From Candidatus Schekmanbacteria bacterium (GTDB lineage: Bacteria > CSSED10-310 > JACPHN01): a DNA stretch of 29,365 nt. This document shows, one piece after another, positions 5,162-27,281 of the stretch (its first letter is position 1; every line of letters starts with the position of its first letter). The notes under the pieces were generated by a model that had not been told where the DNA came from, searched no databases, and was given only the letters and a program-made list of their open reading frames with translations. The DNA is taken from assembly GCA_016188575.1 (NCBI GenBank), contig JACPHN010000107.1, positions 1 to 29,365 of the forward strand, given 5' to 3'. A program made the translations under genes and the position numbers.

Positions 5162-8100
5162 TCAGTCTGTCATGAAGCACGACACCAGGCGCGAGATCTC
5201 ACCAACCAACCCACCTTGCCCGGTCAGCTCCGCGCTCGACGCAGCGCCATCGAGCGTGGGAAACAGCGGGCTTCCGGGCGAAAACAGCTCCGTGCTCCCC
5301 GGATGGGCGTCGAAGTACTCGGGATCCGTCGTGACCCGCAGCGGCCGCTGCATCCCCGGCATCGAAAGCTCATACTCCATACGCCCCAGCGGTCTGGCTT
5401 CCACGCCGGGCGGGAGCAGCTTCGCGCTGCGAATGATCTGATCGAGGGTCTTCAGGTCATACAGCGGCGCCGGCCGCGCGGGCATGTCCAGATCTGCCGC
5501 AGCGGCCCCGTCGAGATCGAACCCTCCCTCTTCGGCTTCTCTCACCTTTTCAGCCAGGCCGCTGGCCAGCTCTGCGCGCACCCGGTCACGGTGCTCGAGC
5601 GGGGCCAAGGTTGCCCCCGTAAGCACGTTCGTCACCGCCGAAAGAATCGGCTGCAGCTTGCCGACGAACTGGCTGAACAGGCCAATACGCTCCCGCAGCA
5701 CCATGTAGACGTCGGTTTCCACCGTGTCGCGATAGTGCAGATTGACGATGCGAATCTCCGAAAAGGCGGATCCCAGGCGATCGATGCGACCGATGCGCTG
5801 CTCTCCTTTCATCGGGTTCCACGGCATCGAGTAGTTGACCAGCGCCCCGCAGAACTGGAAGTTGAGACCTTCCGCGGCCGCGTCGGTGCAGAGCAACACA
5901 TCGGCGGCCTTCTCCCGGAAGATTCGCTTGGTCTCGTCGCGCGTGATCACCCGCCAGGTGCCGTCGGGCGCCGGAAGCTCGCCGCCGCGCCCCGAATAGC
6001 AGAGCACCGACATGCCGTGCTTCTTCACGAGGTGCTTGCGGAGAAAATCCATGGTGTCGGTAAATTCCGTGAAGATCATCACCTGCTTGTAGCCGCCCTC
6101 ACGGAGCTCGCGGATTTTCGCGACGAGGACCGTGACTTTCGTATCCGCGGGCAGCACCTTGACCGCATCGAGGAGAACCTGGATTTCGCTCTGCTCCTCG
6201 CGCAGGAGAGCTTCCGCCGCGAGCTCCGCCGCCTCCTCGGCATCCAGGACCTCCTCCTGCAGATCGTCCTCGAGGATGTCGTCGTCTTCGAACGGCGCGG
6301 GTGGGCGACCCGAGCGCAGCGCCTCGAGCCGCTTCTTGAGCGTGGCCTGGAGCGCGTAGAAGCTCGACGCCAGGCGGCGGCGGTAAATGGTCATGACAAA
6401 GCCGATGGCGGTGCGTTGGTCCACGGCGGCAGCGTTGTAGGTCGAAGAAATATAGGTCTCCAGCGCCTCGTACAGGGCGCGCTCCGGCGCCGACAAGTCG
6501 ATGAACACGTCTTCGACCTGGCGCCGAGGCACCGGCGTGTCGATCTTTCCGGCAGCAAAGTACGCGCGCAGGAGCTCGCGGGTGTGCCGTGACACCAGCC
6601 GCGCGATCGGCGTGTTTGCCTTCATGATCTTCAGCGCCGCCCGGCGGCGATCCGTGTCGAGTTGCCGGCGGCCCGTCCTGGCCTCGTCGCGCAGCGCCTG
6701 GAGAATCTTCTTCGCCGCGAGCTTGCTGTTCTTGGGCACGTGGCGCAGCGCCAGGTCGATCGGCGTTTCGCCAAAGAAGGCTTCGACCTCGCGAAACATG
6801 CGGGCCAGGTACTCGAAGTCGTCGTGGGAGGGGTTGCCGGTGCCGAGCTTGTCGAAAAACGCGACGAAGTCCTGGGCGGTCCACGCCGGAGGCAGCCCGA
6901 GCAGGTGCAAGAGATCCCAGACCTCGACGGGATCGACCTGCATCGGGGTCGCGGTCAGCAAGATCAGCCCCTGCGTCCGTTCCCTGAGACCTTCCATGAG
7001 CCGGAGCAACTGATTCGGGCGCAGCTCCTCGGCGCAACCGCCCCGGCGGCGCGCGTGGTGAGCCTCGTCGAGGATGATCAGGTCCCACGGATCGGCCTGC
7101 TCGAGCAGCTCCTTGCGGCGCTCGGCGCGGCGCATGAGCTGGCTGCCGGCGAGCACGCAGGGTTCTCGATGCCATTCGCTGCGGCTGACCTGACGCTCGG
7201 CGCGGCCGTCGAGCGCGGGGCAAGGATACCACCGCAGCGCCCCGCCATCGTAGATCGGCCAGTTGAGGTTGAATTTTTCTCTGAGCTCGATCTGCCACTG
7301 AATGAGCACTGCCTTGGGAGCGAGGATGAGAATACGGCGAGCGCGCCCCGAGAGCCAGGCCTGTCTCAGCACCATCGACGCCTGAATCGTTTTCCCCAGC
7401 CCCACTTCGTCCGCCACGAGGCACCGCGGCGGCCATCTGTCGTACATGCGGTGAAAAGCGCGGATCTGGTGGGGCCAGGGAGCAACCGCGCTCGTGGCCT
7501 CGCCCACGCGCTCGCCGCCGTTCGCGAACGCCGCCGCGTGGGTGATCCAGCCCCACAGGAGCCGTCTGATGTCGACCGGTGCAGGCTCCGGCGGGGGATC
7601 GGCGGCCGGCGCAGGCTCTTCATCCGGCGTTTCTCCTGCCGCCGCATCCTGGAGCCGACCCGGCAACCGGTCGCTCTCCGGCAGGAAACGCAGGAGCTGA
7701 TCCCGCGCGGCGTCGGGCACAGCGATGGTGAGACAGCGACGCATCCTGTCATTCCACAGCTTCGCGAAGCCGGCGTCTTCCGTGTCGACGTGCTCCCGGT
7801 CGCCGCCCCAGGCGGTGAATACGTGAAAGCTCTCCCAGTTGCCGCGCCAGCCTTGGCGGGTCTCGTTGACCGAGCCGTTGAATGCCAGTCGATCGCCGGT
7901 CTTGTCTTCGACGATGCCGGCCTTTTCGTGGAAAATCCCGTCGGACGGGCACGGGTGGCGCGTTTCCGGGTGGCACGGTACTGCTACCCTGACCTCGAGG
8001 TAACCCCGGCCCACCATCCAGGCGAGCAGCTCCAGGGCGTCCGCCTGCACCGCGCTCTCGGCACTCAGCGGTACGCGCGCGAGCCGCGCACCGGCGACGT

Positions 8101-8362
8101 CCTTCAACGCCTCCCCGCGCTCGATCGCCTGAACCTCCGGCTCATCGAGGGTGCAACCGACCACGAGGCGCATGCGGCCGTTGTTGCGCACGATGCCTTC
8201 GATGCCCCGCGCCGCGAGGGTCAGCACGCCCGCGGAAAAGTAGCCCGTCGACCGGTCATATCGCAGCGCGCATGCGAGCACCGGATCATAGAAATCGTCG
8301 AGCAGGTTATCCTCGTCGGAGTCGTATTTGGTCTTCCAGGTGTAGTCTGTGAGCAGGGGCAT
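5162..8362 (-). CDS. PLD-like nuclease + SNF2 helicase of an Hma/DISARM-like defence system
   Basis: 1066 residues, ATG start three bases after the stop of the DUF1156 methylase, so clearly the same operon. Residues about 15-215 form a phospholipase-D-like domain with one H-x-K motif (H145, K147) and the following GSVNET. After a Pro/Ala/Glu linker (240-265) comes the SNF2 ATPase: motif I DEVGLGKT (318-325), DEAH (432-435), TATP (470-473). The second RecA lobe has IFTEFTDT (763-770), CTDAAAEGLN and QRIGRIDR (855-862). An acidic helical insert lies at 693-730. The protein is inferred to translocate on or remodel DNA as the helicase part of a helicase-methylase-ATPase defence system, with DUF499 and DUF1156 partners in this island. 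A truncated second copy lies at the right edge of the window. It looks intact. The PLD part could be nuclease or only DNA-binding, since a single HKD usually works as a dimer. Confidence 0.85.
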   Translation of the reverse strand: MPLLTDYTWKTKYDSDEDNLLDDFYDPVLACALRYDRSTGYFSAGVLTLAARGIEGIVRNNGRMRLVVGCTLDEPEVQAIERGEALKDVAGARLARVPLSAESAVQADALELLAWMVGRGYLEVRVAVPCHPETRHPCPSDGIFHEKAGIVEDKTGDRLAFNGSVNETRQGWRGNWESFHVFTAWGGDREHVDTEDAGFAKLWNDRMRRCLTIAVPDAARDQLLRFLPESDRLPGRLQDAAAGETPDEEPAPAADPPPEPAPVDIRRLLWGWITHAAAFANGGERVGEATSAVAPWPHQIRAFHRMYDRWPPRCLVADEVGLGKTIQASMVLRQAWLSGRARRILILAPKAVLIQWQIELREKFNLNWPIYDGGALRWYPCPALDGRAERQVSRSEWHREPCVLAGSQLMRRAERRKELLEQADPWDLIILDEAHHARRRGGCAEELRPNQLLRLMEGLRERTQGLILLTATPMQVDPVEVWDLLHLLGLPPAWTAQDFVAFFDKLGTGNPSHDDFEYLARMFREVEAFFGETPIDLALRHVPKNSKLAAKKILQALRDEARTGRRQLDTDRRRAALKIMKANTPIARLVSRHTRELLRAYFAAGKIDTPVPRRQVEDVFIDLSAPERALYEALETYISSTYNAAAVDQRTAIGFVMTIYRRRLASSFYALQATLKKRLEALRSGRPPAPFEDDDILEDDLQEEVLDAEEAAELAAEALLREEQSEIQVLLDAVKVLPADTKVTVLVAKIRELREGGYKQVMIFTEFTDTMDFLRKHLVKKHGMSVLCYSGRGGELPAPDGTWRVITRDETKRIFREKAADVLLCTDAAAEGLNFQFCGALVNYSMPWNPMKGEQRIGRIDRLGSAFSEIRIVNLHYRDTVETDVYMVLRERIGLFSQFVGKLQPILSAVTNVLTGATLAPLEHRDRVRAELASGLAEKVREAEEGGFDLDGAAAADLDMPARPAPLYDLKTLDQIIRSAKLLPPGVEARPLGRMEYELSMPGMQRPLRVTTDPEYFDAHPGSTELFSPGSPLFPTLDGAASSAELTGQGGLVGEISRLVSCFMTD

Positions 8363-8365
8363 GAC

Positions 8366-11333
8366 CTACTCTGTGGGGGCTCCCGCTACCGTGCCAACGT
8401 CTTGCCAGCCTTGCGATTCGGTGCTCTCCCACAAGCCAAGCTGCCGCGGCCGGCATACGCGCTCGGTGTACGCCAGCCGGCGCAGGTGCTCGAGCGCATC
8501 GAAATCGCCGGCGGCATCGGCGATGGGACCTTTCTCGTCCGGGATGCGGGTGAAGGTCGACGAGATCGGCAGCACCTCGAGAATGGCGGCGAGAGCAATC
8601 GGAAAGGTCGGGTTCTTGTCGGCGCCGCTGCGCTCGAGCAGCTCGCGCGCGGCCTGCAGCCCCGCGGCGTGGACGCGCTGGGCGGCGTGGTGGAGCGCGT
8701 CGATCATGCCGCGGCTGCCGTCGGGCGCGCCGAGAGCGCCCTTGGCGGCGCGCTTCTTGCTGTCCCAGAGCACGACACTGCTGGCTTTCTTCTCGGCCAT
8801 GCGGCCGATGATCTCCCGGTCGAGGTCGACACCCACGACGCGCGCCAGGCGCAGCGCTTCGTCGTAGGGAAACTCGGGCGCGCGAAAGGCATCCCAGGCG
8901 AGCACGAACCACTCGGTCGCGCCGTCGAGATCGGTGCGGCGCGTGGTCTGGAGGATCTGCTCCATGCGCCACTGTTTCACCTCGCGCCGCGCGGCCTCGA
9001 TGGCGTCCTCGGGAGTGACGGCGTACGGGTCCTCGCCGGCGCTCGCGCCGCGCTTCGGCTGTCCCCGCTTGAGCGGCCAGTGCCGCGCGAGCTCCTCCAG
9101 CGCCGGGCCGAAGCACGACAGGTAGAGGTCGACCCCCGCGATGCCCGCGGCCTGAAACTCGGCGACGCGGGTCCGCACCGCCTGGGCCACGCGCGGCTCG
9201 ACGTCTTCCCAGTAGGCAGCGGCGTCCGCGGCCGCGCGCGGCGGGCGGGGGCGGCAGACGAGAAAGATCGTGCTGGAGGCCGCGGCTTTGTCCCTGATGT
9301 GCATGCTGCCCGCGGCTTCCGTGTTGATGGGCCACGACGCGGAAATCGTAAACCCGGCTTCGAGCAAGCCCGAGGCCAGTGCGTCCCAGGCATCGGCGGA
9401 CTTGTGGGTGAACATGACGGTCATGAGGCCGTCTGGCTTGAGCACCCGGCGGCATTCGGCGAAGATCGCCGCCATGCGGTGGTTGTAATCCGCCAGGGCG
9501 AGGTCGCGGGCGCCTTTCTTGCCCTTGAACTTGGCGACATTGGCAACCGCCTCGTTTTCCTTGTCGGTGAGTTGCCGGCGGAAGAGCTCGGGGTAGAGGT
9601 AGCCGGACATCCGTTTCTGCCAGACGTAGAAGAAGTCGGACAATTCCGCATACATGACGTTGTCGGCATAGGGTGGGTCCATCACGACCAGATCGACGCT
9701 CTTGTCGTCCAGGTGGTCGAGCTCATCCCCGGAGCCGGCCGTGATCGTCACCAATGGCGCGTAGAACGACACCGCCGGCGCAATCGTGCGTTGGCGAGCG
9801 GTCTTGATCGTGGCCTTCACGTCAATGTCGGGTCGGGTGAGCTCGATGAGCTCCTCGAGGGCTTTTCCCGTGGCATGCAAAGCCCAATCGTACCCAAGTC
9901 CAACAATGAGCGCGGCCATTTCCGCATACGACCAAACAAATGCGAAGTCGTGACGATCAAATAGACTCCTTACACGCGAGGTAGTCGTATCCCACCGGCA
10001 TAATCGACAGCCGTAGTAGATAGTCTTGCTAGTGGCCAGCGACAGATACGCCAACGCCGCCCGCGTGACGTCGCTCAGCGCGCCTTTTGCTTCTTCTTCC
10101 CGCAGGAGCTCGCGAAAGACCTCGACGCTGGTGCCGTGGCAGAGGAGTTGGCGGGGGGAGAAGAGGTCGCGCCAACGGTACATGCCGTACAGGCGATGCC
10201 CGCGGTCGTAGTTGCAGGGGTCTCCGATTGCCTCCGTCGGCACGAGGTCAAACGCCTCCCACTCGGGCATTTTCTCCGCGAGCCGTGCCTGGATCGCGGC
10301 GGCGTTGTCGTCCTCGGGCCGCGGGGCGCGGGGCGCGGTAGCCGCGGTTCCATTTCTCGCTGGTGCGTCCGGTTGCGGTCGTCGTGATGACCCGCTGTTT
10401 GTAGACGACGGCAAAGAGCTGCTCGCCCATGCCGCCCGCCTGCGCCTGGCGCTTGATCTCGTCGCCGTCGACGGTGCGTCCGCAGTCCGGGAACGGGCAA
10501 CTGGCGATGCCGCGCGCCACGGTGCCCGCGGAGTGCTCCTTGGCCTTCGCCACGATCGCGAAGCAACAGCGCCGATGGCCGGTGACGGTGTTGGGGATCA
10601 ACCGCACCCCGGTCCCGTCCGGAGCCAACCGCCAGTTCGGACTGAGCGGAATGAGCCCGTCGCAGTAGGGGCAGGTGATCGTGCGGGACCAGAGGTAGTT
10701 GGTGGAAATCGCATTTGCGCCCGGTTCGAGTGGGTAATACGGCGCAAGCCTTTCTTCGCGTCGCTTGACGAAGTCCTTGGTGGTGCGCTCATACTCCCGG
10801 AGCACCTTGAGCCCGAACGTCATGGGGAGCTCGACCGTTGCCCGCAGAATGAGCGCGGCAACGGAGTTTAGATCATTGGCAAACGTGTCCAACCCCAGAC
10901 GGAGACCTTCAAATGGGATACTGCCGCCACCGGCCGTAGGATCGAGCAGCGTGGGTTTCGCGATTCCTATCCGCGACATCTCGAACCTGTACCACTCCCG
11001 GTCGTTTTTCGTCGGCAGATACTTGAATGCTCGATCGTACGGGTAGGCCTGCCCCGCAAAGCGCTCTCCGGTGCGGCGCGCCTGATCGATTCGCTGCCGG
11101 CAGGCCACCGGATCCCCATGAATCCCCAGGACGTGCAGAAACCTCTCGCGATCCGCGTCCTCGGGCAACAGCGACGCCAGGATCGCCGCCCGCGACGCCA
11201 CCAGCGGCCGGCGCGCCCACCAGACGTGAAGGCGGTTCGGCGCCGGAAACGGCGTCATGGGCGTTCGTTCGCGCTCGCCTTCCACGCCCAACGCCGCCAC
11301 GGGCATCCAGGTTTCGATCAGGCGTTTCTTCAT
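8366..11333 (-). pseudogene. DUF1156 adenine-specific DNA methylase, one frameshift
   Basis: The N-terminal frame runs from 11333 to about 10320 and the rest from about 10335 to 8366, together ~980-990 residues, the usual size. Residues 30-60 are the DUF1156 signature ([20 protein letters not shown]). DPTAGGGS (131-138) is the SAM-binding motif. Two Cys pairs (C221/C224 and C279/C284) make a zinc ribbon. After the frameshift comes the catalytic motif VVMDPPYADNVMY, and the C-terminus ends in YTERVCRPRQLGLWES. Family knowledge: this is N6-adenine DNA methylation, here presumably marking self DNA for the PLD-SNF2 system. The frame change falls inside a GC-only repeat (about 10314-10340), consistent with a 7-base insertion or a one-base loss. 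A sequencing or assembly error there is quite possible, in which case the gene is whole. It is coupled to the SNF2 gene downstream. Confidence 0.85.
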
Positions 11334-14080: not shown

Positions 14081-14327
14081 CGGAATTCCTCGGCGCGGGG
14101 TGCCGGGCTGGCACCTTGTCTGTAGGTTTGTTGCGCACCCATGAACATCAAGAAACTTCCTTCGTTGGATGGGGTGTTTGAGCGCGTGCTCGATAATGCC
14201 CGAAGCGAACGCCTCGGTCAAGAGCATTTCGCCCTGTTCATCTGCGGCTCGCTCGGTTCACCGCGGCGTCTCTTGGATGGCGCTACCGGTGCCGCAACCA
14301 AACACGTGCAACCTGCAAGAAAAGGTG
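14081..14327. other. Intergenic region between the ATPase gene and the 21-bp array
   Basis: These 247 bases separate the ATPase start from the repeat array. Short frames cross them on both strands (for example a plus-strand ATG at 14141), but none has a recognisable product. The ATPase operon promoter presumably lies here. I see no convincing -35/-10 pair. Confidence 0.4.
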
Positions 14328-14537
14328 ATCGATCGAGAAATGGACGCGGGCGAACGGCACGTGAGCGGGGCCGACCGAGCCAAACGCTCCATCGATCGCG
14401 TTCGGAGCGGCATCGATCGCGTGTGTTGCTCGCTTGATCGCGAACGAAACTGGCTGGATCGAGCATGGAGCTCGATCCAGCGAGCCATTGGCTCGATCCG
14501 CGGCGCAAAAAAGTCCATGGGTCGACCTTCGATCTCG
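14328..14537. repeat. Ten degenerate 21-bp tandem repeats (heptad-coding, hairpin-forming)
   Basis: Ten consecutive units of exactly 21 bp start at 14328, 14349, 14370, 14391, 14412, 14433, 14454, 14475, 14496 and 14517. On the plus strand most read ATCGATCGAGC, then about five free bases, then GCTCG. Translated in plus frame 14328 this is a seven-residue repeat of the form (I/L)-D-R-A/V-x-x-S. The minus strand is also open, with a repeat ending in R-S. Because GCTCG of one unit meets ATCGATCGAGC of the next, the array is full of inverted repeats. The best is CTGGATCGAGC (14454-14464) with GCTCGATCCAG (14470-14480). The array begins 53 bases beyond the stop of the 158-aa gene, on the downstream side of that gene. 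Confidence 0.85.
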
Positions 14538-14589
14538 ATAGCAGGCCGGCAGCAGCCGTGCGCCGCCGCAGCGCGACGCTCAGCCGCGG

Positions 14590-15066
14590 TCAAGGCGAGG
14601 TGCGCGGGGTGCGCTTGCGGCGCTGCGCGGCGAAGCGCTCGCCCAGCTCGGTGACCATGGCCGAGACGCCTGGGTCGCTGTCCTGCTGCTTCTGCAAGTA
14701 GCCGTAGACCAGGAGGGCCGCCTGGAAGGCCTCGCTGCCGGCCTGCATTGTCGCGTCGTCAAGGGCTCGCTGCAAGGCGACGAGTCGCAGGGACAGGGAC
14801 TCACCTTGCTGATAGAGCGTGACATCGCGCCGGAAATCCGCAATGTCGAAGTTACGCGCAAGCAGGTCGGCATGGGTTTCGGCGGCCTCGAGCGCCTTGG
14901 TCACGAAGGCAAGGGACTTGTCGCCGAGTTTCGGCAGCGACCGCCGCTCCTCGTCGGTGAGCGCGATGTCGAAACCGGAACAAAGAGCGTCGAGCGCCTG
15001 CAAGTGGCCGACGGCCTCCGCGAGCTGCTCGGGCGAAAGAACCAGATCGATGCGATTCTCTACCAT
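14590..15066 (-). CDS. Conserved 158-aa helical protein next to the 21-bp array
   Basis: 158 residues, ATG preceded by AGGAG at good spacing. The product is all-helical, with LSPEQLAEAVGHLQAL, a central LTDEERRSLPKLGDKSLAFVTKALE block, RNFDIADFRRDV, and a C-terminal helix followed by a basic RRKRTP tail. I recall a widespread but uncharacterised family with the pattern L-T-x-E-E-R-R-x-x-P-K-x-G-D-K-S-x-x-F-V in Verrucomicrobiota, Planctomycetota and others, but cannot check that here. It has no enzyme motif, signal peptide or membrane segment. It has its own likely promoter upstream (15180-15208), unlike the coupled neighbours, and is followed directly by the 21-bp array. The array and the gene may be one unit. 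Confidence 0.65.
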   Translation of the reverse strand: MVENRIDLVLSPEQLAEAVGHLQALDALCSGFDIALTDEERRSLPKLGDKSLAFVTKALEAAETHADLLARNFDIADFRRDVTLYQQGESLSLRLVALQRALDDATMQAGSEAFQAALLVYGYLQKQQDSDPGVSAMVTELGERFAAQRRKRTPRTSP

Positions 15067-15246: not shown

Positions 15247-15789
15247 TCAGGTGTCTCCTGGCCGCAATCTGCCCTGTCGCCGCAACTCTCTCGCCACGAA
15301 GGGTGCGTGGCGGGTGAGGTGTGCCAGCGAAATCTCCCCATCCCAATACGCCTCCGCATATTCGGCCCGTGCATCGCAGCAGATATCATCACGGAGCCCC
15401 AGGCGCGTAATCGTGGTCTCGACGGCATGCGCAACCCCATCCGGCGAGCACGCCAGTCGGTAGTTGTTCCACTCGTACACCCGATCCCATCTCAGGGACT
15501 TGGCAATGACGTGGTCCACGCTCGGTGCACCTGTGCCACGGGGAATGTACAGGCAAAGGTAGGCACAAAGCCTGTGGTAGCTGGAAAGCAGGTCATGGAG
15601 CGCATCTCGCCAATACGGAGGAAACGCGGCGGCCGGAATCTCATCCCTCGCCTGGGCAATCTGCTTGTGGCGTCTGCCGGCGGTCCTCAATGGTTTCTCG
15701 CCGACCATCTCGGCAATTGACCGAAGACCTGGCGCTCGCACTTCGATATCGAAGGTCGGGGGTTCGTCGGCGCGATCCACGTGCATCAT
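15247..15789 (-). pseudogene. HNH endonuclease (PtuB-like) lacking its third motif
   Basis: The ATG at 15789 overlaps the stop of the upstream ATPase (ATGA), giving 180 residues. The N-terminal part has FDIEVRAPGL and RDALHDLLSSYHRLCAYLC. The core has GAPSVDHVIAKS (the first His of the HNH fold) and YEWNNYRLACS. In relatives I know, ACS is followed by an L-M-N-x-R-K stretch and a DVLDPF segment, which bring the last Asn/His of the motif. Here the sequence jumps to PDGVAHAVETTITRLGL, which belongs about 50-60 residues further on. The C-terminus (ARELRRQGRLRPGDT) is normal. The frame is open, so a shortened protein may be made, but nuclease activity is unlikely. The ATPase+HNH order matches Septu (PtuA-PtuB)-like pairs. 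Confidence 0.65.
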
Positions 15790-17010
15790 GGCTGTCCTCC
15801 GCTCCGCTCCACGAACGCGTTCCAGCGCACCCAAAAGCGGTCCCCATCGGCAAGGACCGCACGAAGATCCTGGTGGGCTGCCATGACCCGCGCAAGGCTC
15901 GGGTTGGTCTGCCGCAAGATCTCTCTTGCCCGAAGGATGGCGTTTTCAGCCTCGATGCTGCCGCGATCCGTGGGAAGGTCAAATGCTTCGCTCGTAAGCC
16001 AATAGCCCGCCGTTCCATGCAGCGTGTAGGTCCGCTTGCGCAGATGAGCTCGGGGTGGGTGTCCATCGAGGTCGAGATCGAACCAGGCGTCCTTCGCCGG
16101 GTCAAACCAGGGTTCGGCCGATGCCAGGATGAGCGGCGAGTGCGTCGCGACGATAAGCTGAACGTCCGCCCGATCGTGCAGGACGGCGGAAAGATCCCGA
16201 AGCGCCCGCAAGATGAACCGCTGCCAACGTGGATGAAGATGGCTCTCGATTTCGTCAAACAGCAAGATCACCTGGGCAGCGCGCTTCTCCCCCAAACGCT
16301 CCGCCGCGACAGCATGCTCGTTCCAGGACCACATGAGCATATAGGCCAGTCCGGCGATGCGACGCACGCCTGACGATGCGTGCACGATCGGAACAACCTG
16401 CTCATAGCCTGTGCGAATGGTGGGGATGTCTTGAGCGTCATTTACCGACAGCCGCGTCACTGGCCCCACCAGGATGGGCTCAGTGCCGCGAGCCAGGACG
16501 TCAAGGATCTCGGCCATCTTGCGGGCGTTGTCGCCGTTCTCGCGAATCCAAAGAGACCAATCATCGAGCAGGCCCTTACAGACCTTGGTGGGCTTGCCAT
16601 CGACCTCCACGACAAGCCCTTTCCAGACGTCCTCGGGAGCGAAGACATATCCAGGAAGTCGCTCCTGGATGTCGACATTGCCTTTTCGCTTCCAGTAGTT
16701 GCGAGCCGGATCCCACACCGAGAATCCTCCGTCGGCATGGGCATAGATGACCAGTCCAGGATTCCATGGACGACCCGCCTTTCCCCTCCAGGCTTCGTCG
16801 CGCGCCGCATACGTGCTCTCGTAGGTGACGCTTCCTGTCTTCGAGGCAAGACGGAATTCGATGGCCGCGCGTGCTTTCGGGTCAGTCGGTTGGGCCGAAT
16901 ACCCTGAGGTTAGCTTCGTTGTCCCCCGTGATCAGGTTGAGCCGCGGGGCGAGCTCCATCTCCATCTCGGGCGCCGGCCCGACGTTTGTCAGCTTCAGAT
17001 ACTCTAACAT
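15786..17010 (-). pseudogene. Septu-like AAA ATPase with the P-loop deleted
   Basis: The start (ATG 17010, MLEYLKLTNVGPAPEMEMELAP) runs to RLNLITGDN. In this family the next residues are GLGKS, the Walker A lysine loop. Instead the frame reads EANLRVFGPTD and stops. The remaining protein continues in another frame from about 16905 (QPTDPKARAAIEFRLASKTG) through IYAHADGGFSVWDPARNYW and a long middle domain. Walker B LLFDEIESHLHPRW and VATHSPLILASAEPW are both intact, and the end is at 15786. So the deletion removes the nucleotide-binding loop and shifts the frame. The open part from 16718 could still be made from an internal GTG. The downstream HNH gene overlaps its stop. Normal length would be about 420-430 residues. 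Confidence 0.75.
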
Positions 17011-17591: not shown

Positions 17592-18812
17592 TTAGTGATC
17601 CGGCGCCTTGTTGACCTCCAAATCATGGATCTCCCACTCCCGCCGCACGACCTCATGATCGTGCTCGCCGAGATCGCTCCTGATCGCCTCGAGAAGCGCC
17701 TTTGCTTCGTCAACCTTGGCATCTTCGATGAGCTCCTCGAGGCGGTCGAGCTTCTTCTCCATCCATTCCGGGCGCGGGCGGACCCCCATGATTTCCCGCA
17801 GAACGGCATTGCTGTCCTTTCCGTAAACCGCCTCGGTCGACAGGGCCTCAGATGCGTCGGCAACGAGCAACCGCATCCACTCTCGCCTTGCCGTGGCAAT
17901 GACTTGGGGAGAGTGGGTCGTGACGAAGAGCTGAATCTTCGGAAACGCCCGTCGTAGGTCATCCAGCACCTGGTGTTGCCAGGAGGGATGGAGATGCAGG
18001 TCGATCTCGTCGATGAGGACAACGCCTTCGGCCTTCGTTCCAGCCTCGCCGCCGTGGTGCGGATTCAGTTGCACGGCCCGCCATGCAATGTCGGCAACCA
18101 TGCCCAGTATGTTCCGATATCCGTCCGACAAACAGGAGAAAGGCAATACTCGTCCATCTTCAAAGGTCAGTCGGAGCTCCTCATGAGCCACGTCGTACGA
18201 GAAACGGGTGGCCCCCTCGATGCAGCACAGCACCGCACTCTGGACCGCCTCGACATCGATCAGTCGAATGGTCGATGGATCTTCGCCCTGTTCCATGGCG
18301 GCGGCGATTTTCTGCAGCCGTGCTTGCTCTCGCCAGCGCATCCAGGCTTCGAATAGATTCTGGTTGGATGCCGGATCGAGGCAATCGGTGTAGCCGCTGA
18401 AGCGCGATCCAAGCCCAGACAGCTTTAGCAAGCTCTTTGATTTCTGGCTCCAAAGTCGTCCGGTCCCATAGTAGGCGAAAACGGGAAGATCGATGGAGGC
18501 GCTCGTCGCTACCGCCTTCTGTGCCTCTGCTGCCCACGATCGCAGCGCAGAGGTCTGGCCGTACGTAGTCTTCCCGCCTTTCTTGCGGAGCTCGCGAGAC
18601 CAGGAGAGCCGTCGATCATGGACGCGGCCCTCGACTTCGATTTCGACGGGATAGGCTGGCTCGAGTCGAACCGCACCATGGCCGAGCTTCGGCCGTACAA
18701 GGCGAATATCTTCGTGCTCAATTGAACGTGCCGGCACCTCGGCGAGATTGATGAACCAACTGCCGATGGCGATGGCCAACGCGTCGAGAATCGCCGATTT
18801 TCCCGCCCCGTT
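17592..18812 (-). CDS. AAA ATPase (PtuA/RecF-like), frameshifted just before the P-loop
   Basis: The frame from 18812 begins at NGAGKSAILDALAIAIGSW, the Walker A loop, and stays open for ~406 residues. A middle domain has VFAYYGTGRLW. Then come PFSCLSDGYRNILGMV (signature), GVVLIDEIDLHLHPSWQ (Walker B) and VTTHSPQVIATA (switch His). The C-terminal helical tail (KKLDRLEELIEDAKVDEAKALLEAI) is the type seen in Septu PtuA-like ATPases, after which an HNH partner would be expected. Instead a DUF1156 fragment follows. The N-terminal strand (FRIDRLVVRNFRGFQTFDARFHP) is encoded in the frame of the PIN-like gene upstream. The two frames part around 18812-18825, probably through loss of about 10-13 bases before the P-loop. 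Without that N-terminus the ATPase is probably not functional. Confidence 0.7.
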   Translation of the reverse strand, partial: NGAGKSAILDALAIAIGSWFINLAEVPARSIEHEDIRLVRPKLGHGAVRLEPAYPVEIEVEGRVHDRRLSWSRELRKKGGKTTYGQTSALRSWAAEAQKAVATSASIDLPVFAYYGTGRLWSQKSKSLLKLSGLGSRFSGYTDCLDPASNQNLFEAWMRWREQARLQKIAAAMEQGEDPSTIRLIDVEAVQSAVLCCIEGATRFSYDVAHEELRLTFEDGRVLPFSCLSDGYRNILGMVADIAWRAVQLNPHHGGEAGTKAEGVVLIDEIDLHLHPSWQHQVLDDLRRAFPKIQLFVTTHSPQVIATARREWMRLLVADASEALSTEAVYGKDSNAVLREIMGVRPRPEWMEKKLDRLEELIEDAKVDEAKALLEAIRSDLGEHDHEVVRREWEIHDLEVNKAPDH

Positions 18813-19422: not shown

Positions 19423-19908
19423 TCACCTACCCATCTTCGGATCGATGAGCAGGTGTCGCAGCGACATGAGCACTCGCCTGGGGTACTTGCGGTGCATGGC
19501 CATCCCGAGCCAGTAGGCCGCTTCTTCCTTCTCCATCGCTTCTATGCCCTCGGCGACTTGCTGCATGTTGAAGCGATCGCGCATCGGGGCCAGCGAGCGA
19601 AACATGAGGCCAAGCTGCAGCGCGAGGAGCTCGTTTACGGCGAAGCAGCGCTCGGCCCCTGGCCCCATGCCCCCCAGATCGATGTCCGCTCTCTTCAGCC
19701 GTGGCAACACCCGCGGCTCGAGCAGCGCCAGGTTGCGACCGTGCAGTCCCGCGATGCGCTTCGCTTTCTTCAGATGCGGCGACGCCGCGCTCGGAAGCTG
19801 CCACACTTCGAGCTGGGTGTCGCTCGAGCTGATCAGCTTCGCGCGCAGCTCGTACTGCGGTTGCGCTCCGTTCACGGGACTGCAGTGCTTACCGTTACTC
19901 GCTCCCAT
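19423..19908 (-). CDS. DUF7680-like protein of the DUF499/DUF1156 system
   Basis: 161 residues from the ATG at 19908, which shares one base with the DUF499 stop (TGATG). Recognisable segments are YELRAKLISSSDTQLEVWQLP, KKAKRIAGLHGRNLALLEPRVLPRL, and the helical C-terminus MRDRFNMQQVAEGIEAM followed by EEAAYWLGMAMHR and PRRVLMSLRHLL. I recall this as the small protein family (DUF7680) that accompanies DUF499 ATPases and DUF1156 methylases. There is no catalytic motif. A structural or adaptor role within the ATPase-methylase-helicase complex is an inference from constant gene neighbourhood only. Confidence 0.65.
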   Translation of the reverse strand: MGASNGKHCSPVNGAQPQYELRAKLISSSDTQLEVWQLPSAASPHLKKAKRIAGLHGRNLALLEPRVLPRLKRADIDLGGMGPGAERCFAVNELLALQLGLMFRSLAPMRDRFNMQQVAEGIEAMEKEEAAYWLGMAMHRKYPRRVLMSLRHLLIDPKMGR

Positions 19909-22900
19909 CACTTCGCTTCCGCTTCCGCCTCGACGAAGGCCGCGCCCGTGGCGAAGCGCGTCAGCCGCGCCGACAGCTTTTCAGGCTCATCGCCGGCAAG
20001 CGGGAAACCCTGGTTCCAGCTCACCGTGTAGTTGCAAGTCAGGTGCGTCTCTGCCGCCGCCCGAAACTGAGGCTCGAGGAAATCCTTCAGCGGCTGTGCG
20101 TCGTTGGGCGGTCCGTCAAAGTCGAGTGCGAGCGTGCTGCCGGCGGCGGTCTCGTACTCGGCGTGCAGCCGCACCGTTTTTTCGGCGCCGCTCATGGCGG
20201 AAATCACGCTGAGCAAGCGAAAAGCGTCGGCAACTTCGAAGACGCGAAGCCGCAACCTGGCCAGACGCTCGACCCTGGCTGCCCGAGCGTCCTCCCAAAT
20301 TCGTGTCAGCGCTTCCTTGAGCGGTGCCTCGGCCTTGAAGACTTTCGTCTGCGATTGGGGCGGTGCCGTCCCGCTGCCGCCGGCGCCGGAATGTGCGGGT
20401 CCAGGTCCCTGGCCTGGTGGGGTCGGACGCGGCCCTGGCGGCGGGGAACCCGTGCTCGCGCCAGTCGGCGGTGCGCCAGCGGCGGCGGGCCGCGGCCACA
20501 GACCCTTCTGGGTGGCGTACGCCATGGTGAAAACGAAGGACTGCTCGTCGATCTTGATCTCCGCGAAAGGGTCGCCGGGACCGAACAGGAGCTCGCCGCT
20601 CCTGTACACGTACACCGCGTCCTTCACGCCATTGTGGATCATCTTCACCAGGTTGCCGTTTCCGAGCATGATCGGCAGACGCGGATCGCTTCGGAATTCC
20701 CCCCGCAGATCCGCCGTGCTGATCTGACCCTTCTTGAGCGGGGTCTGGTCGCGCACGTAGGTAGCGGCGAGCGGACGGTCCTCGTCGCGCAACAGCTTGT
20801 TGTTATCGCCCAGCGCGCGAAGCACCTGCTGCTGGCCGGCCCCGGGTTTTTCGGATGCCGAGTGGACATCGAAGGCGGTGTGGCCGAGGTCGACACTGGC
20901 GCCGCTGACGCGGTTGCCGCGCGACGGGTAGAACATCTGGCGATAACACTGCTGAATGGCGAGTGCCAGCTCCTGCTCCGCGCGCTGATGGAGCTCCTTG
21001 ACCTTGTTCTGTTGGTGCTCGGCGAGATCCCTCAGACGTTCCGGCTGCCGCATCGCCTCGAGCGCAAGTCGGCGGCGAATTCTGGCTTTCATCTCGCCGC
21101 ACATCGCCTCGTCGGCCAACAGAAACACGAGATTGTTTTGAAGCTGGCGAAAGGCCCCCTGAGACCCCTGGGTGCGAAAGATCTTTTCGACCAGCGGCGG
21201 AATGGACACCGTGTCGCTTTTGACGGTCTCCGCGTCATAGCCGATCAAGACGAGATACGGACGACCGTCACCGACGTTGTCATCGACGTCGTAGGGAGCG
21301 CCGGCGAAGGGGATCAGATTGAGCTCCTGGCCGGCGAAGATGGTGCGGATGCGGTCGTTGAGCTGGGCGCGCACCTCGTTGGGATCGATCTGGTTCTCCT
21401 GGCGCCGGATAATCTGGGTCAAGTTGGCTTCGGTGAGAAACCGGAGCGGCACGGCAGGGCGATCGTCGAGGAAGGCGGATTCCGCCATGAACCGCTGGCG
21501 CGCATCGTTGATGAAGCTCGGATCGAGCCCGGGCGCGAGGATGGCGAAGCGGAGCTCCGGGGCGGTGACGCCGCGGATCTGCTCGTTGAACGCAAAGGTG
21601 TGCCAGAGAATGTTGCGCGCGACGAAGGACGTGTAGGGTGCCAGCCCGAGGTAATGCTTGACGTCGATCTGTTTCGCGAGCGAGGCGCCGCTGTCACTGG
21701 CCGAGACGTCGTTGCGGATGGCGGGGTCGAAGGCCGACAGCTCCAGCCGCGTGACGATCTCGTTGTGAATTGGACCGTGTCCGGGATCGATCTGGTGGGT
21801 GTGGACGGCGTACGTACCCGCCGGCCGATCGCGCCAGAGCTTGGCGACGGTCCGGGTGAGGAGCCGAAGCATGCCGCGGACTCTTTGGAAGTTGCTCAAC
21901 GTGGAGAGCTTGTTCGTCAGCATCGACATGAGCGCCGGGTGAAAGGGATAGTCCCGGCGAAAGTGGGCAACCGGGTCCTCACCCATCCGCGGCGCCGGCA
22001 GATCAGCGGCGTGTTGGCTCCACAGTCTGCCGTACTCGCCGACGACCAGGGCCGCGGCCGAATCATCGATGGCCTTGAACAGCCGGCGCCGCAGCACCTG
22101 AGCGGTCTCGGGTTCGGAGGTAGGATCGAGCACGGTGGCCTTGCGGGCGGCGACGCTTTCGATCTCTTCGAGCTTTCTGGCGATGAATTCGTTTTCGCTG
22201 GAATAGGCATCGGTAGACTTGAAGGTCTTGCCGATGGCCAGCGTGAACACGAGCGCCGCGCCCGGAGAGCTTTCCACCGCCTTACAGAGCCCGGTGAGAA
22301 AGGGCGTGAGCTGATCGCCTTCCGCGCGGCCACGCACCTTGCGCAGGTAGACTGCGAGCTCGTCGAGCAGGATCAGCGTTGGTTGACCGCCGAACAGGTT
22401 GCGCAGCGTTTCCGCTCCGGGCGCGACGCGCTGCTGGTCGCTGGCCGCTACCGACCGATACCCGGCGGCACCGGCGAGCGCGTAGGCGAGCTCTCCCCAC
22501 GGCGTGTAGGCGCACACGTCGTCGCCGAGCCGCCGGCCGTTCAGCGGATCCGCGTTCTCGCCGTCCCACGCCGCCAGGCGAGCTCCCGCTCGCGGGATAA
22601 TCGTCGGGTCGAGGAATTCGGCAGCGTTTGCGACGCCGGGCATGCCCTTGGCGAGGTGGCTGAGCGCGATCAGCGCGTGGGTTTTGCCGCCCCCATACTG
22701 GGTGTCGAGCCGAAAGATCGACGCCGCCTCGCCACCCACGCCGCGGAGCCGCAGCGCAACGTTTTGGAGCACGGCCCGGAGCCCCTGCGTGGGGTGGGTG
22801 TTGGCAAAGAAAGTGGCGGGGTCCGCGTATTCGCTCGGCGCGGCTCCGGGCCGCAGAACCTGCGCGAGGTCGGCCGCATAGTCGGATTCCTTGATGCCGC

Positions 22901-22949
22901 CGCTCAACACGTCGTCACGCGGCTCGCAGATCTCAAACAGCGTCTTCAT
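19908..22949 (-). CDS. DUF499 P-loop ATPase of an Hma/BREX-like defence system
   Basis: 1013 residues from the ATG at 22949 (MKTLFEICEPRDDVLSGGIKESD, the typical family start). The open frame continues upstream, but that part looks like remnant DNA. The P-loop is RLDTQYGGGKTH (80-91) and Walker B is LILLDELAVYL (192-202). SSENEFIARKLEEI, YPFHPALM and LSNFQRVRGMLRLLTRTV are further family landmarks. A long Pro/Gly/Ala/Ser linker (about 815-869) separates the ATPase from a ~145-residue C-terminal domain. DUF499 ATPases are related to the BREX PglY/BrxC class and occur with DUF1156 methylases and SNF2 helicases in anti-phage islands. Here it is the first gene of the island and is coupled to the DUF7680-like gene. 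Frame and motifs are intact. Confidence 0.85.
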   Translation of the reverse strand: MKTLFEICEPRDDVLSGGIKESDYAADLAQVLRPGAAPSEYADPATFFANTHPTQGLRAVLQNVALRLRGVGGEAASIFRLDTQYGGGKTHALIALSHLAKGMPGVANAAEFLDPTIIPRAGARLAAWDGENADPLNGRRLGDDVCAYTPWGELAYALAGAAGYRSVAASDQQRVAPGAETLRNLFGGQPTLILLDELAVYLRKVRGRAEGDQLTPFLTGLCKAVESSPGAALVFTLAIGKTFKSTDAYSSENEFIARKLEEIESVAARKATVLDPTSEPETAQVLRRRLFKAIDDSAAALVVGEYGRLWSQHAADLPAPRMGEDPVAHFRRDYPFHPALMSMLTNKLSTLSNFQRVRGMLRLLTRTVAKLWRDRPAGTYAVHTHQIDPGHGPIHNEIVTRLELSAFDPAIRNDVSASDSGASLAKQIDVKHYLGLAPYTSFVARNILWHTFAFNEQIRGVTAPELRFAILAPGLDPSFINDARQRFMAESAFLDDRPAVPLRFLTEANLTQIIRRQENQIDPNEVRAQLNDRIRTIFAGQELNLIPFAGAPYDVDDNVGDGRPYLVLIGYDAETVKSDTVSIPPLVEKIFRTQGSQGAFRQLQNNLVFLLADEAMCGEMKARIRRRLALEAMRQPERLRDLAEHQQNKVKELHQRAEQELALAIQQCYRQMFYPSRGNRVSGASVDLGHTAFDVHSASEKPGAGQQQVLRALGDNNKLLRDEDRPLAATYVRDQTPLKKGQISTADLRGEFRSDPRLPIMLGNGNLVKMIHNGVKDAVYVYRSGELLFGPGDPFAEIKIDEQSFVFTMAYATQKGLWPRPAAAGAPPTGASTGSPPPGPRPTPPGQGPGPAHSGAGGSGTAPPQSQTKVFKAEAPLKEALTRIWEDARAARVERLARLRLRVFEVADAFRLLSVISAMSGAEKTVRLHAEYETAAGSTLALDFDGPPNDAQPLKDFLEPQFRAAAETHLTCNYTVSWNQGFPLAGDEPEKLSARLTRFATGAAFVEAEAEAK

Positions 22950-23015
22950 CGGCACTTGCCCCCACTTTTTCGTCTTCGGCAGCCTCTGGTCGCTGGCATC
23001 TCGCCCCGGCCTGTG

Positions 23016-23135
23016 CTCACACCGGAATCGCCGCGAGCTGCCGGCCGTCAACCCCGGGATCCGGCGTGGCGCGGCCATGCGGAACAAACTGCGCCCGGTC
23101 ACCTCGCGGTAGGCCGCCACGTCTTTGCTCGTGAG
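23016..23135 (-). pseudogene. Degenerate excisionase-type HTH (HTH_17) segment
   Basis: Upstream of and in frame with the DUF499 gene the sequence reads LTSKDVAAYREVTGRSLFRM, then RRIPGLTAGSSRRFRCE. This closely follows the HTH_17 pattern (L-T-S-K-D-V-A-A-Y-L-x-V-T-x-R-T-L-F-R-M ... I-P-G-x-K-V-G-x-x-W-R-F). The conserved Leu and Trp are replaced and the recognition end is lost. Short HTH genes of this kind often precede methylase/helicase defence operons. No start codon of its own is obvious. Confidence 0.5.
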
Positions 23136-23227
23136 GGTATCTTCCAGCGCGCCCTGGCTCGGGTTGCCGCGTCTTCTCGGCACGCTAGTGCAGCGATGGC
23201 AAGGAAGCAAGAGTCTCCGCCTCGATC

Positions 23228-23443
23228 TCAGCCGGCGCCGCTCGCGCCTTTCCCCAAGGGCTCGCGCCGCCCCGGTTCCAGCCATCTCGTCCGCGCCCCC
23301 AAACCGCTCTCGGCAAGGGCGCGGCGCAGCGACTCATCCGGCTCGCGGAAGTGCAACCAGCCGCTGTGGTGTAGCGGCACAATAGTGGCCGGGTCGAGCG
23401 CGCGACACACCGTAGGGCAAAGGATCGCAGCAGAATCAACCTT
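23228..23443 (-). pseudogene. C-terminal fragment of an MBL-fold metal-dependent hydrolase
   Basis: The minus frame gives CRALDPATIVPLHHSGWLHF, then REPDESLRRALAESGLGARTRWLEPG and a stop at 23228. The I-V-P-x-H-x-x-G-W-x-H-F block and the final R-x-L-x-P-G are the C-terminal end of UlaG/metallo-beta-lactamase-fold hydrolases, including one metal His. The H-x-H-x-D-H region and everything before it are missing. It lies between the HTH remnant and the divergent kinase gene. Confidence 0.6.
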
Positions 23444-23529
23444 CCCTCGCCGGCGGGGACCGCGCGACCCACCGGCTCCGCGCCACCCGCGCCTGGACGC
23501 GCCCGGTGCGACATTCTAGAATCGCCGCC

Positions 23530-26500
23530 ATGCAACCAGATGCGTCCCGGATCATGGGTTCCTACCGCCTGCTCGGCGAGCTCGGCAAGGGCGGCATGGG
23601 CGTGGTCTGGCTCGCGGAGCACGTGCAGAGCCGAGACCGCGTCGCGCTAAAGACGATCCGCGTCCCCAACGAGTCACTCCTCCGGAGCATTCGACGCGAG
23701 GTCCTCTCGCTCGCACGCACGCGCCACCCCGGCGTCGTGCGCATCCTCGACGAAGGTCTCGAGGACGGCATTCCCTGGTATTCCATGGAGCTGCTCGAGG
23801 GATTGTCGTTGCGCCACTGGGCGCAGCGTGTGCACATCGAGGCCGCTACCGCCGGCGACACCCCGGCAGGCGAGAGGCACACGTTTGCCGGTGCTGCCAC
23901 GGTGCTGAGCCCGGCGGCTCTGCCGATCGCCGCGACTCAAGCCACCTCGCTGGAACGTAGTCCCGGCGCGGCGACCACCGCTCTCCCCGTCGCCCCTGTT
24001 CTGACCCTCGTGCGCCGTCTGTGCGGGCCGCTTTCCTACCTCCACGGCGAGGGCATCGTCCATCGCGACCTCAAGCCTGAGAACATTCTCGTGAGACCCG
24101 ACGGCAGACCCGTCATCGTGGATTTCGGGCTCGCGGTCTTCTTTGGAGGTACCGAAAACCGGGAAACGCTGTCGATCGAGGCTGGAGTCTGGGGAACGGC
24201 CACCTACATGGCCCCCGAGCAAATCCGCGGAGAGCTCGTCGATGCGCGTGCGGATCTGTACGCGCTGGGCTGTATTCTGTACGAGCTGCTTACGGGGCGA
24301 CCTCCGTTCCTGGGAGGTAGCGCGCGAGATGTTTTTCACGCGCACCTGTCTCGCCCACCCGTCCCTCCATCCCGGGCTGCCGGCGGCATACCGCCGGCGC
24401 TTGATGACCTGGTGCTGCGCCTGCTGGCGAAGGAGCCCAGGCAACGTCTCGGCTATGCGGACGTCGCCGCGGCCGCTCTTGCCGATCTCGGCGCGGAGGT
24501 TTGCCCCGCCGATGCCACGGGGTCACCTTCCCGCGCCTATCTATACCGGCCGGGATTCGCGGGGCGAGCGCACGAGATGGCGTTGCTGCGAAAGCGCCTT
24601 GACGACTTGGATTGCGGCCGGGGTGGGCTCGTGCTGCTCGGAGGCGCAAGCGGAGTCGGAAAGACCCGCCTCGCGATGGAAGTCGCTCGCGAGGCGCTTG
24701 CACGGGAGGCTCTCGTGCTTGCGGGCGAATGTCTGGACGGGGACCGGGAGCCGTTTCGCGCCTTCCGAAAGCCGCTTCAGGCGATCGCCGATCGCTGTAG
24801 AGAGCTGGGGCCTGAGGAGGCGGAGCGGTTGCTCGGCGCACGGGCAAGGTTGCTCGCGGCGATCGAGCCCACTCTTGCGGGGCTCCCGGGATTGGAAGCG
24901 TACCCGAAACCCACCGAGCTCACCGGCGAGGCCGCGCGGAGGCGCATGGTCATCGCTGTCGCGGACACCCTGTGGGCGCTGGCGGCGCACGACGCGACAC
25001 TGCTCGTACTGGATGATCTGCAGTGGGTGGATCCACTCTCGGTCGAGGTGCTCACGTTTTTGTTGCGGAGCAAGCGGTTCGCGCGCTCTAGTTTGCTTGT
25101 TCTCGGTACGTACCGCAGCGAAGAGGTAGGCGATGCTCTCAAGCCACTTCTTCAAGGTGCGGGTACCCCGCCCGTAAAGGTCGGCCCCTTGGAGGAACGC
25201 ACAGTTTCGGCGATCGCGGCCGACATGCTCGCACTGGATCGACCTCCAGAGCGCCTCGCACGATATCTGGCCGAAAACTCCGAGGGGAACCCCTTTTTTG
25301 CGGCGGAATACGTGCGTTTGGCGATCCAGGAAGGCCTCGTGTTCCGCAGCGGTTGGGGCGCATGGACGGTCGCGGCGGCCGGCACGCCGGACGCGGAGAG
25401 GGGCTACGCGGCGTTGCCGATGCCCAAGTCGCTGCGAGATCTCGTGGCGCGGCGGCTCGGGGGTCTGCCACTGGCGGCGAGCAGACTGGCGGACGCGGCC
25501 GCGGTCCTCGGCAGAGAGTCCGACGCCTTGCTCCTGTGGGAAGTCACGAGCCTGGAGGAAGTGACGTTTGTGGAAGCGTCGGACGAGCTGAATCAGCGCG
25601 GGGTGCTCGAGGACGGCGGTGCCGGGAAGCTCCGCTTTGCGCACGACACGATTCGCGAGGTCGCCTATTCACGCCTGGCGGACGCGGAACGGGTGGCGCT
25701 GCATCGCCGCGCAGCGGAGGGCATTGCGCGGCTCTACCGGCGCGACAGCGAAGCCCATCTTGCGGACCTCGGTCGCCACTGGCGCGGGTGTGGCGAGACC
25801 GAAAAGGCCAAGACGTGCATGCTGGCGGCGGCTCGGAGGGCGAAGGCCCTCGGTGCGCTTGCGGCCGCCGCGCCTCTCTATGCAGATTTCCTCGCGCTCG
25901 CCGGCGGGCCATCGGCCGAGAGCTCCGCGGTGCGCTGCGAGCACGCCCATGAGGTCCTGCGCACGCTCGGACGTCTGGACGAGGCGGAGGCCGAGCTCCG
26001 GCGCGCGCTCGAGGAGGCACGGGCGGTGGCGAATCGAACCTGTGAGGCGATGGCCGTCGGCCGTCTTGCCACCATTGCCGCGGATCGTGGGCGGCCCGCG
26101 GAGGCTCGGACGCTCTATCTGCTGGCGATCGCGGCTTTTCGCGATCTCGGTGATCGCTGGGGCGAAGGTCTTATGTTGGGGAATCAGGGAGCCCTGCTCC
26201 TGCGGCAGGGGGCATTCGATGAGGCGCGCGCTCTTTACGAGCAGGCTCTCGCCATCAAACGCGAGATAGGCGACCGGCGCGGCGAAGGGATCATAGTCGG
26301 CGAAGTCGGCAGCGTCTGCGAGAGTCAGGGATGTCTGGAAGAGGCACGGGACCACCACACGAGGGCGATCGCGATCTTTCGTGAGCTCGGTGACAAACAA
26401 GACGAAGGGGTCTATCTGGGCAATCTCGCGGTCGTCGACGCCCAGCGTGGGCAGGTTGACGACGCGCGGGCGGGATTCGAGCGAGTGCTCGCCATCGCTC

Positions 26501-27159
26501 GCGAGACCGGCGACCGGAGCAGCGAGGCGATCGATCTTTTTAATCTCGCTGACCTGTGCGCGGAGGAAGGCCGCACCGAAGCGGGGCTGCGCTCCGCGGA
26601 ACAGGCGCTAGCAATCTACTGCGAGCTAGGCGATCACCAGAGAGAGGGCCAGGCGCTGTCGACCCTGGCAACGCTGCGCAGGGACAACGGCGATCTCGAC
26701 GAGGCGCGGGCGCTGTGCGAGCGGGCCATCACGCTCCACCGCGAAGCTGGTGACCGCACCTGCGAAGGAGATACGCTTGGAAAGCTCGCCGGACTGCACC
26801 GCCTGGCGCATGGAGATCTCGCGGTGGCGCGGTCGCTCACGCTCACCGGCGAGACCATTCTGCGCGAGGTGGGCGACAGGATCTCATTGGCTGCATTGCT
26901 GTGCGAGGCAGGCCACCTGCGGCTTGCCGTGCGCGAATCCGCTCGACCTCTGATCGCGGAGGCGCGGGAGCTGGCGGCAGCCAGCAACGTCGGACCGGCG
27001 AGCTTTTGCCTTCGCAAGATCGACAAGCTCGAGCGCGCCCAGGCCGCCTTCGAGGCCGGCGAGCACGACCGCCTATTTCGCGGCCAGCTCACGTCGGATC
27101 TCACCGCGGGCCAGCGCCGCCGACTGATCGCTGGCGGCAATCTACAGCCTGCGCCGTAG
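23530..27159 (+). CDS. Ser/Thr protein kinase with AAA ATPase and TPR domains
   Basis: 1209 residues from the ATG at 23530 (a GTG at 23506 is less likely). Kinase domain residues 12-325: glycine loop [12 protein letters not shown]41 in [12 protein letters not shown] (178-185), DFG (198-200), APE (228-230). An Ala/Thr/Pro-rich insert of about 55 residues (103-158) sits between the hinge and helix E. A signalling-type AAA ATPase follows: Walker [10 protein letters not shown] (371-379), Walker [12 protein letters not shown] (491-501). The C-terminal ~400 residues are tetratricopeptide repeats of the G-D-x-x-x-E-G-x-x-L-x-N-L-(A/G) / A-R-x-x-x-E-x-A-L-x-I type. This is a cytoplasmic signalling protein common in Myxococcota, with no membrane segment. 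It is transcribed divergently from the defence island and I see no direct link to it. Confidence 0.9.
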
Positions 27160-27239: not shown

Positions 27240-27281
27240 GATTGAAGATTGCGGATTGCGGATTGCGGATTGAGGATTGAG
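27240..27281 (+). repeat. Left array: six 7-bp GATTGNN repeats
   Basis: Six direct 7-bp units: GATTGAA, GATTGCG three times, GATTGAG twice. It lies 23 bases before the ATG of the four-helix-bundle gene. The same repeat type occurs in the opposite orientation at the other end of that gene. Confidence 0.9.

Follow-up and report, generated by a model that had tools for sequence, protein, structure and literature searches.

A gene for a small all-helical protein and a tandem array of DNA units repeated every 21 or 22 bp were found next to each other at many bacterial loci, and this points to an undescribed protein-and-DNA-array unit. The pair was studied in a stretch of 29,365 nucleotides from Candidatus Schekmanbacteria (contig JACPHN010000107.1), referred to here as the window. 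That the protein and the array belong together is well supported. When homologues were gathered by protein similarity alone, with arrays ignored, the periodicity that the preliminary description had proposed to look for was detected: a period-21 or -22 tandem array lay within 700 bp of 63 of the 95 distinct homologue genes. The proposal that protein and array form one functional unit was thus supported, as most homologues adjoin such an array, and both its period and its sequence track the protein. DNA arrays in phase with the helix are a regular companion of this family, which the main family libraries do not recognise. No description of the unit was found in the open-access literature searched; one may exist elsewhere or under another name.

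The gene and its array in the window

The unit in the window comprises the following features:

14590..15066, minus strand: gene for a 158-aa protein, predicted to be all-helical (open reading frame, homologues, AlphaFold2 model)
14327..14536, no strand assigned: array core of ten diverged 21-bp units (autocorrelation, shuffles, Kadane segment, dyad)
14453..14481, no strand assigned: inverted repeat GCTGGATCGAGC-TCCAT-GCTCGATCCAGC within the array, with a 12-pair stem

In gene orientation, the array lies 3′ of the 158-aa gene. Both the reading frame and the diverged 21-bp repeats following it, as first described, were confirmed, the ten units at 14327–14536 being far above chance. Self-similarity at lag 21 was 0.52–0.54 at 14291–14545, the strongest of the window, and values of 0.50–0.51 were found at lags 42 and 63 as well. 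The observed value was not matched by any of 2000 first-order Markov resamples, whose best at any lag was 0.44. A weaker 21-bp periodicity surrounded the core, from about 14292 to 14589, and the Kadane segment over the array measured 298 bp. The units can be recognised by eye; as they are only ~50% alike, the array was missed by Tandem Repeats Finder. Compared with column-permuted units, the array had a dyad z of 4.9. A search of the same genome for a matching array elsewhere gave weak matches only. The gene had been credited with its own promoter; a narrow sigma-70 scan upstream of 15066 found none.

A chance repeat was ruled out by the shuffles for the window and by control intergenic gaps (see below) for the family. 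The array might otherwise encode a heptad-repeat peptide, since 21 bp equal seven codons and, in the window, both strands of the array contain open frames. The seven-residue repeat seen on translation is a trivial consequence of the same arithmetic. About one-third of the arrays (19 of 63) repeat every 22 bp, and 33 of 54 arrays contain no open frame in any of the six frames. Period 22 and the stop codons exclude the heptad peptide, so that the ‘variable coiled-coil peptide’ suggested earlier had to be abandoned. For the family as a whole, the reading as a coding peptide or as chance is refuted, and its probability is negligible.

The protein family and the period of its arrays

The window protein showed nothing above noise against Pfam, NCBIfam, PHROGs and PDB, and no PADLOC match. 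Searches with 54 members of the family against Pfam, PADLOC and NCBIfam yielded no supported match, and a profile built from these members retrieved no convincing chain from PDB. When the window protein alone was used as the query, a first contig scan of genomes gave no match. The first homologue, 37% identical, came from a plasmid of Candidatus Thiodictyon syntrophicum. Profile searches then placed members in Bacteroidota-type genomes and in the phylum of genome G253; genome G855 had 16 copies. The 95 distinct homologues belong to Bacteroidota and two other phyla, plus one gammaproteobacterium. Named genomes with members include Algoriphagus, Aquiflexum, Marinoscillum, Aquimarina, Capnocytophaga, Ignavibacteria and a verrucomicrobium, so the overall spread found covers Bacteroidota (including Ignavibacteria), a gammaproteobacterium, Verrucomicrobia and two further phyla. 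Among eight genomes of the window's own phylum, only that of the window has the gene. In one genus the family occurs in 36 of 199 species, in a patchy, multi-copy pattern with pseudogenes. Carriage by phages was ruled out, as no homologue was found in three scans of viral contigs or in phage records.

Family proteins are about 155–180 aa long. AlphaFold2 predicted the window protein (pLDDT 95) to form helices at residues 12–29, 38–43, 49–64, 75–127 and 132–150. The model of a period-22 member (pLDDT 93) agrees with it in having four main predicted helices, one of them of 53–55 residues. Foldseek gave no match under E 0.001 for the two models, and the best VIA-align Z, a middling 5.2, is uninformative for long helices. 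As for the conserved core of the preliminary description, R41 is indeed nearly invariant in the family, but the PKLGDKS part is common to some subfamilies only.

Among the 63 arrays, 44 have period 21 and 19 have period 22; 50 lie downstream of the gene and 13 upstream. Only periods 21 and 22 were enriched, not 20 or 23. Tandem islands in the flanks of homologues had one of these two periods in 66 of 76 cases, compared with 14 of 58 in 460 kb of control DNA lacking the gene. Arrays occupied 36 of 107 intergenic gaps beside family genes and 3 of 141 control gaps (Fisher p = 3.7e-12), although the array-enrichment tests count more independent cases than there are, because paralogues, and loci within one genus, are interrelated. 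In a separate set of 31 loci from named genomes, a few of which overlap the first 95, an array was present at 20 loci, always downstream (20 of 20), and 21 of 23 islands near the gene had period 21 or 22. About one-third of the homologues have no detectable array. It may be noted that the detector is conservative: locus L012, with a visible 42/43-bp array, was scored negative.

Two further observations concern the arrays. In G855, 21/22-bp arrays also occur without a close family gene (L085:8008-8241, L085:17743-18033, L081:4761-5022 and L081:18608-18830). In genome G800, a different helical-looking protein of 257 aa directly adjoins a 21-bp array (L141:16337-17412), and may represent a second family with phased arrays.

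The array period follows the protein subfamily. When it was mapped on the protein tree, 5 changes were needed, compared with 11.7 for shuffled labels (0 of 500). All members of one flavobacterial clade have period 22. Genome G581 holds paralogues of period 21 and of period 22, and hence the host does not set the period. Similarity of the units also climbed with protein identity, from a mean z of 0.02 at <20% to 5.65 at an identity of at least 70%. The consensus unit differs between loci, and distant homologues have unrelated units. Array drift between close species is nearly as rapid as that of third codon positions, and in the closest species pairs the array alignment was either gapless or had one gap of 88 bp, that is, 4 x 22. 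A bias of unit changes towards complementary bases, seen by eye in a few arrays, proved not to be general.

Symmetry of the units and their possible mode of action

Dyad symmetry was detected at p<0.05 in 42 of 54 arrays (mean z 3.06). The columns of the unit vary in their rate of change (overdispersion 2.4), and conservation on one side of the dyad mirrors that on the other (Stouffer 8.3; mean z 1.29, compared with 0.22 for the column-permuted control). The dyad and this mirror-symmetric conservation imply selection on the units. Mirrored positions within units showed no covariation, and the units had no excess of G-U over A-C. These results favour two-fold DNA sites over RNA hairpins; selection for an RNA hairpin or a cruciform stem was ruled out on the same grounds.

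The same tests bear on a unit acting through RNA, whose array transcript would be cut into 21–22-nt RNAs bound by the protein, either in the style of a type III antitoxin or as guides. Such a unit would resemble ToxIN and TIGR-Tas, where a protein gene also adjoins an array, its unit length here being fixed by clade, and TIGR arrays likewise occur on either side of the gene. Folded as RNA, the window array surpassed shuffles (z −2.96), and a hairpin with a T-rich tail is conserved at the array end in the period-22 clade. However, the fold is explained by the dyad, there was no Rfam match, and neither compensatory changes nor a G-U over A-C asymmetry was seen. The arrays are mostly downstream of the gene and, in the period-22 clade, lie past a terminator-like hairpin relative to the helical gene. 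The repeat-derived RNA proposed earlier was therefore weakened, and we consider it unlikely. Among the three options offered, ‘DNA target sites’ fits best, and would entail binding of the array.

In the period-22 clade, about 1.37 kb is conserved between loci with differing flanks, and consists of the helical gene, the array and a 120-aa gene whose product has a weak helix-turn-helix (HTH) match and a coiled coil. This HTH gene directly follows the array (10 copies in 9 loci). At L132:4028-4500, a period-22 array is followed by a 69%-identical HTH gene and the helical family gene is absent; this is probably a degraded unit that has lost it.

The array might then be a regulatory site only, that is, an operator or intrinsically bent DNA for its own or a neighbouring gene, to which the HTH partner or a host factor would bind while the helical protein serves as a co-factor. 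In keeping with this, the array of the period-22 clade immediately precedes the HTH gene, one genome retains array and HTH gene alone, and 13 of 63 arrays are upstream of the family gene. Against it, 50 of the 63 are downstream, and no recurrent second gene was found outside that one clade, so that most arrays have no HTH partner. On balance, a purely regulatory site appears improbable.

A proposed DNA lattice and its relation to known systems

A length of 21 or 22 bp corresponds to about two turns of B-DNA. Taken with the dyad sites and the indels of whole units, this spacing is most simply read as a row of symmetric sites on one helix face. Our best explanation, to which we give slightly less than an even chance, is a DNA lattice in which symmetric sites, phased with the helix, are bound by the helical protein or, possibly, in one clade by the HTH partner. 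Gene and array would form one genetic unit in which the array acts as DNA, offering typically 6–20 two-fold symmetric sites, 21 or 22 bp apart on the same helix face. A dimer of the helical protein may fill successive sites side by side and thereby produce a regular nucleoprotein lattice; in the flavobacterial clade, the array-adjacent HTH protein would perhaps occupy the sites instead. The protein subfamily would set the spacing, and the site sequence, being locus-specific, could drift. Paralogues in one genome would be largely orthogonal, as their site sequences differ. The lattice might serve silencing or autoregulation, act as a segregation- or synapsis-like site, or belong to a selfish unit. 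If true, it would give bacteria a new means of organising or marking their DNA, the conserved signal being spacing and not sequence.

The main weaknesses of the lattice are the acidity of the protein and the drifting sequence. The pI is 4.9 for the window protein, of which only the tail is basic, and the family median is 5.5; some members have lysine-rich N-terminal tails. No recognisable DNA-binding domain was found in the helical protein. Drift near the third-codon rate, and unrelated arrays in distant homologues, are unlike a usual operator. The one-third of homologues that are array-less and the arrays far from family genes in some multi-copy genomes also count against it. We also put forward, with more doubt than confidence, that the pair represents a new class of bacterial protein-DNA-array unit: a small helical protein of unrecognised fold would set and read the 21-/22-bp spacing as a ruler, with geometry (spacing and dyad) inherited and selected, sequence left to drift and many arrays of a genome orthogonal to one another.

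A protein acting as a length ruler in replication or recombination could also leave 21/22-bp duplications as a purposeless by-product, possibly of a selfish element. The arbitrary unit sequence with its length fixed per clade would be expected of such a process, as would the patchy, multi-copy spread with pseudogenes in the one genus (36 of 199 species) and the 16 copies in a single genome. However, the dyad and the mirrored conservation imply selected units. No nuclease or recombinase family was matched by the 54 members in Pfam, PADLOC or NCBIfam, and neither element ends nor target duplications were found. A by-product is thus a poor candidate, with a distinctly low probability.

The proposed lattice was compared with known systems. 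In iteron-type replication origins and in the centromere-like partition sites of parC/ParR, tandem DNA sites about 20–22 bp apart are bound side by side by an adjacently encoded small protein. The present unit is similar in its direct repeats at helical spacing and in their pairing with a gene, whose product would bind them. It differs in that the 54 members have no Rep, ParR or ParB match, the loci are chromosomal and multi-copy with unit sequences unrelated between them, and there is no ATPase or polymerase partner. REP/BIME elements, which are linked to RAYT transposase genes, are palindromic repeats dispersed in the genome. They too tie palindromic repeats to a protein gene, but here no transposase match was found, the spacing is a regular tandem one of 21/22 bp, and the unit sequence is locus-specific.

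Type III toxin–antitoxin systems (ToxIN, CptIN, TenpIN) likewise combine a small protein gene with a cognate tandem-repeat array, and there too the protein determines how long the unit is. In them, the array is upstream and a terminator stands between array and gene (PMC8860590), and the array acts as RNA. In contrast, the arrays here are downstream in 50 of 63 cases (20 of 20 in the named set), their symmetry is of the DNA type, with neither covariation nor a G-U excess, and the all-helical family has no ToxN, CptN or TenpN match (54 members; Pfam, NCBIfam, PADLOC). TIGR-Tas also has a single protein with an adjacent array, upstream or downstream. The TIGR unit is about 36 nt long and is built of two alternating repeats plus two 9-nt spacers, and the proteins carry a Nop domain (PMC12045711); here the period is 21 or 22, and no Nop-domain Pfam match occurs in the 54 members. 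The unit has parts of its layout in common with type III toxin–antitoxin systems, TIGR-Tas, iterons or partition sites and REP/RAYT, but differs from each in its protein family and from the first two also in the layout of the array.

The preliminary description placed the pair in a defence island, and the window does contain such an island, with Hma and Septu genes. This setting is not general, since other members lie mostly among unrelated or housekeeping genes. The setting of the window unit is incidental, and the family as a whole does not suggest a defence role. A conserved neighbour or defence link was ruled out, the only recurrent second gene being that of the period-22 clade. The Hma-type locus (5162–11333 and 19908–23285, both minus strand) has a helicase/PLD gene, a DUF1156 methylase and HmaC/DUF499; the methylase is split over overlapping frames (8366–10414 and 10248–11333), possibly by a frameshift. 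Septu PtuB and PtuA genes, plus a second PtuA-like gene, occupy 15247–16718 and 17592–18779 (minus strand). A large Ser/Thr kinase with AAA and TPR repeats is encoded at 23506–27159 (plus strand), and a short tandem repeat of period 7 (GATTGCG/GATTGAG) lies apart from the array at 27240–27281.
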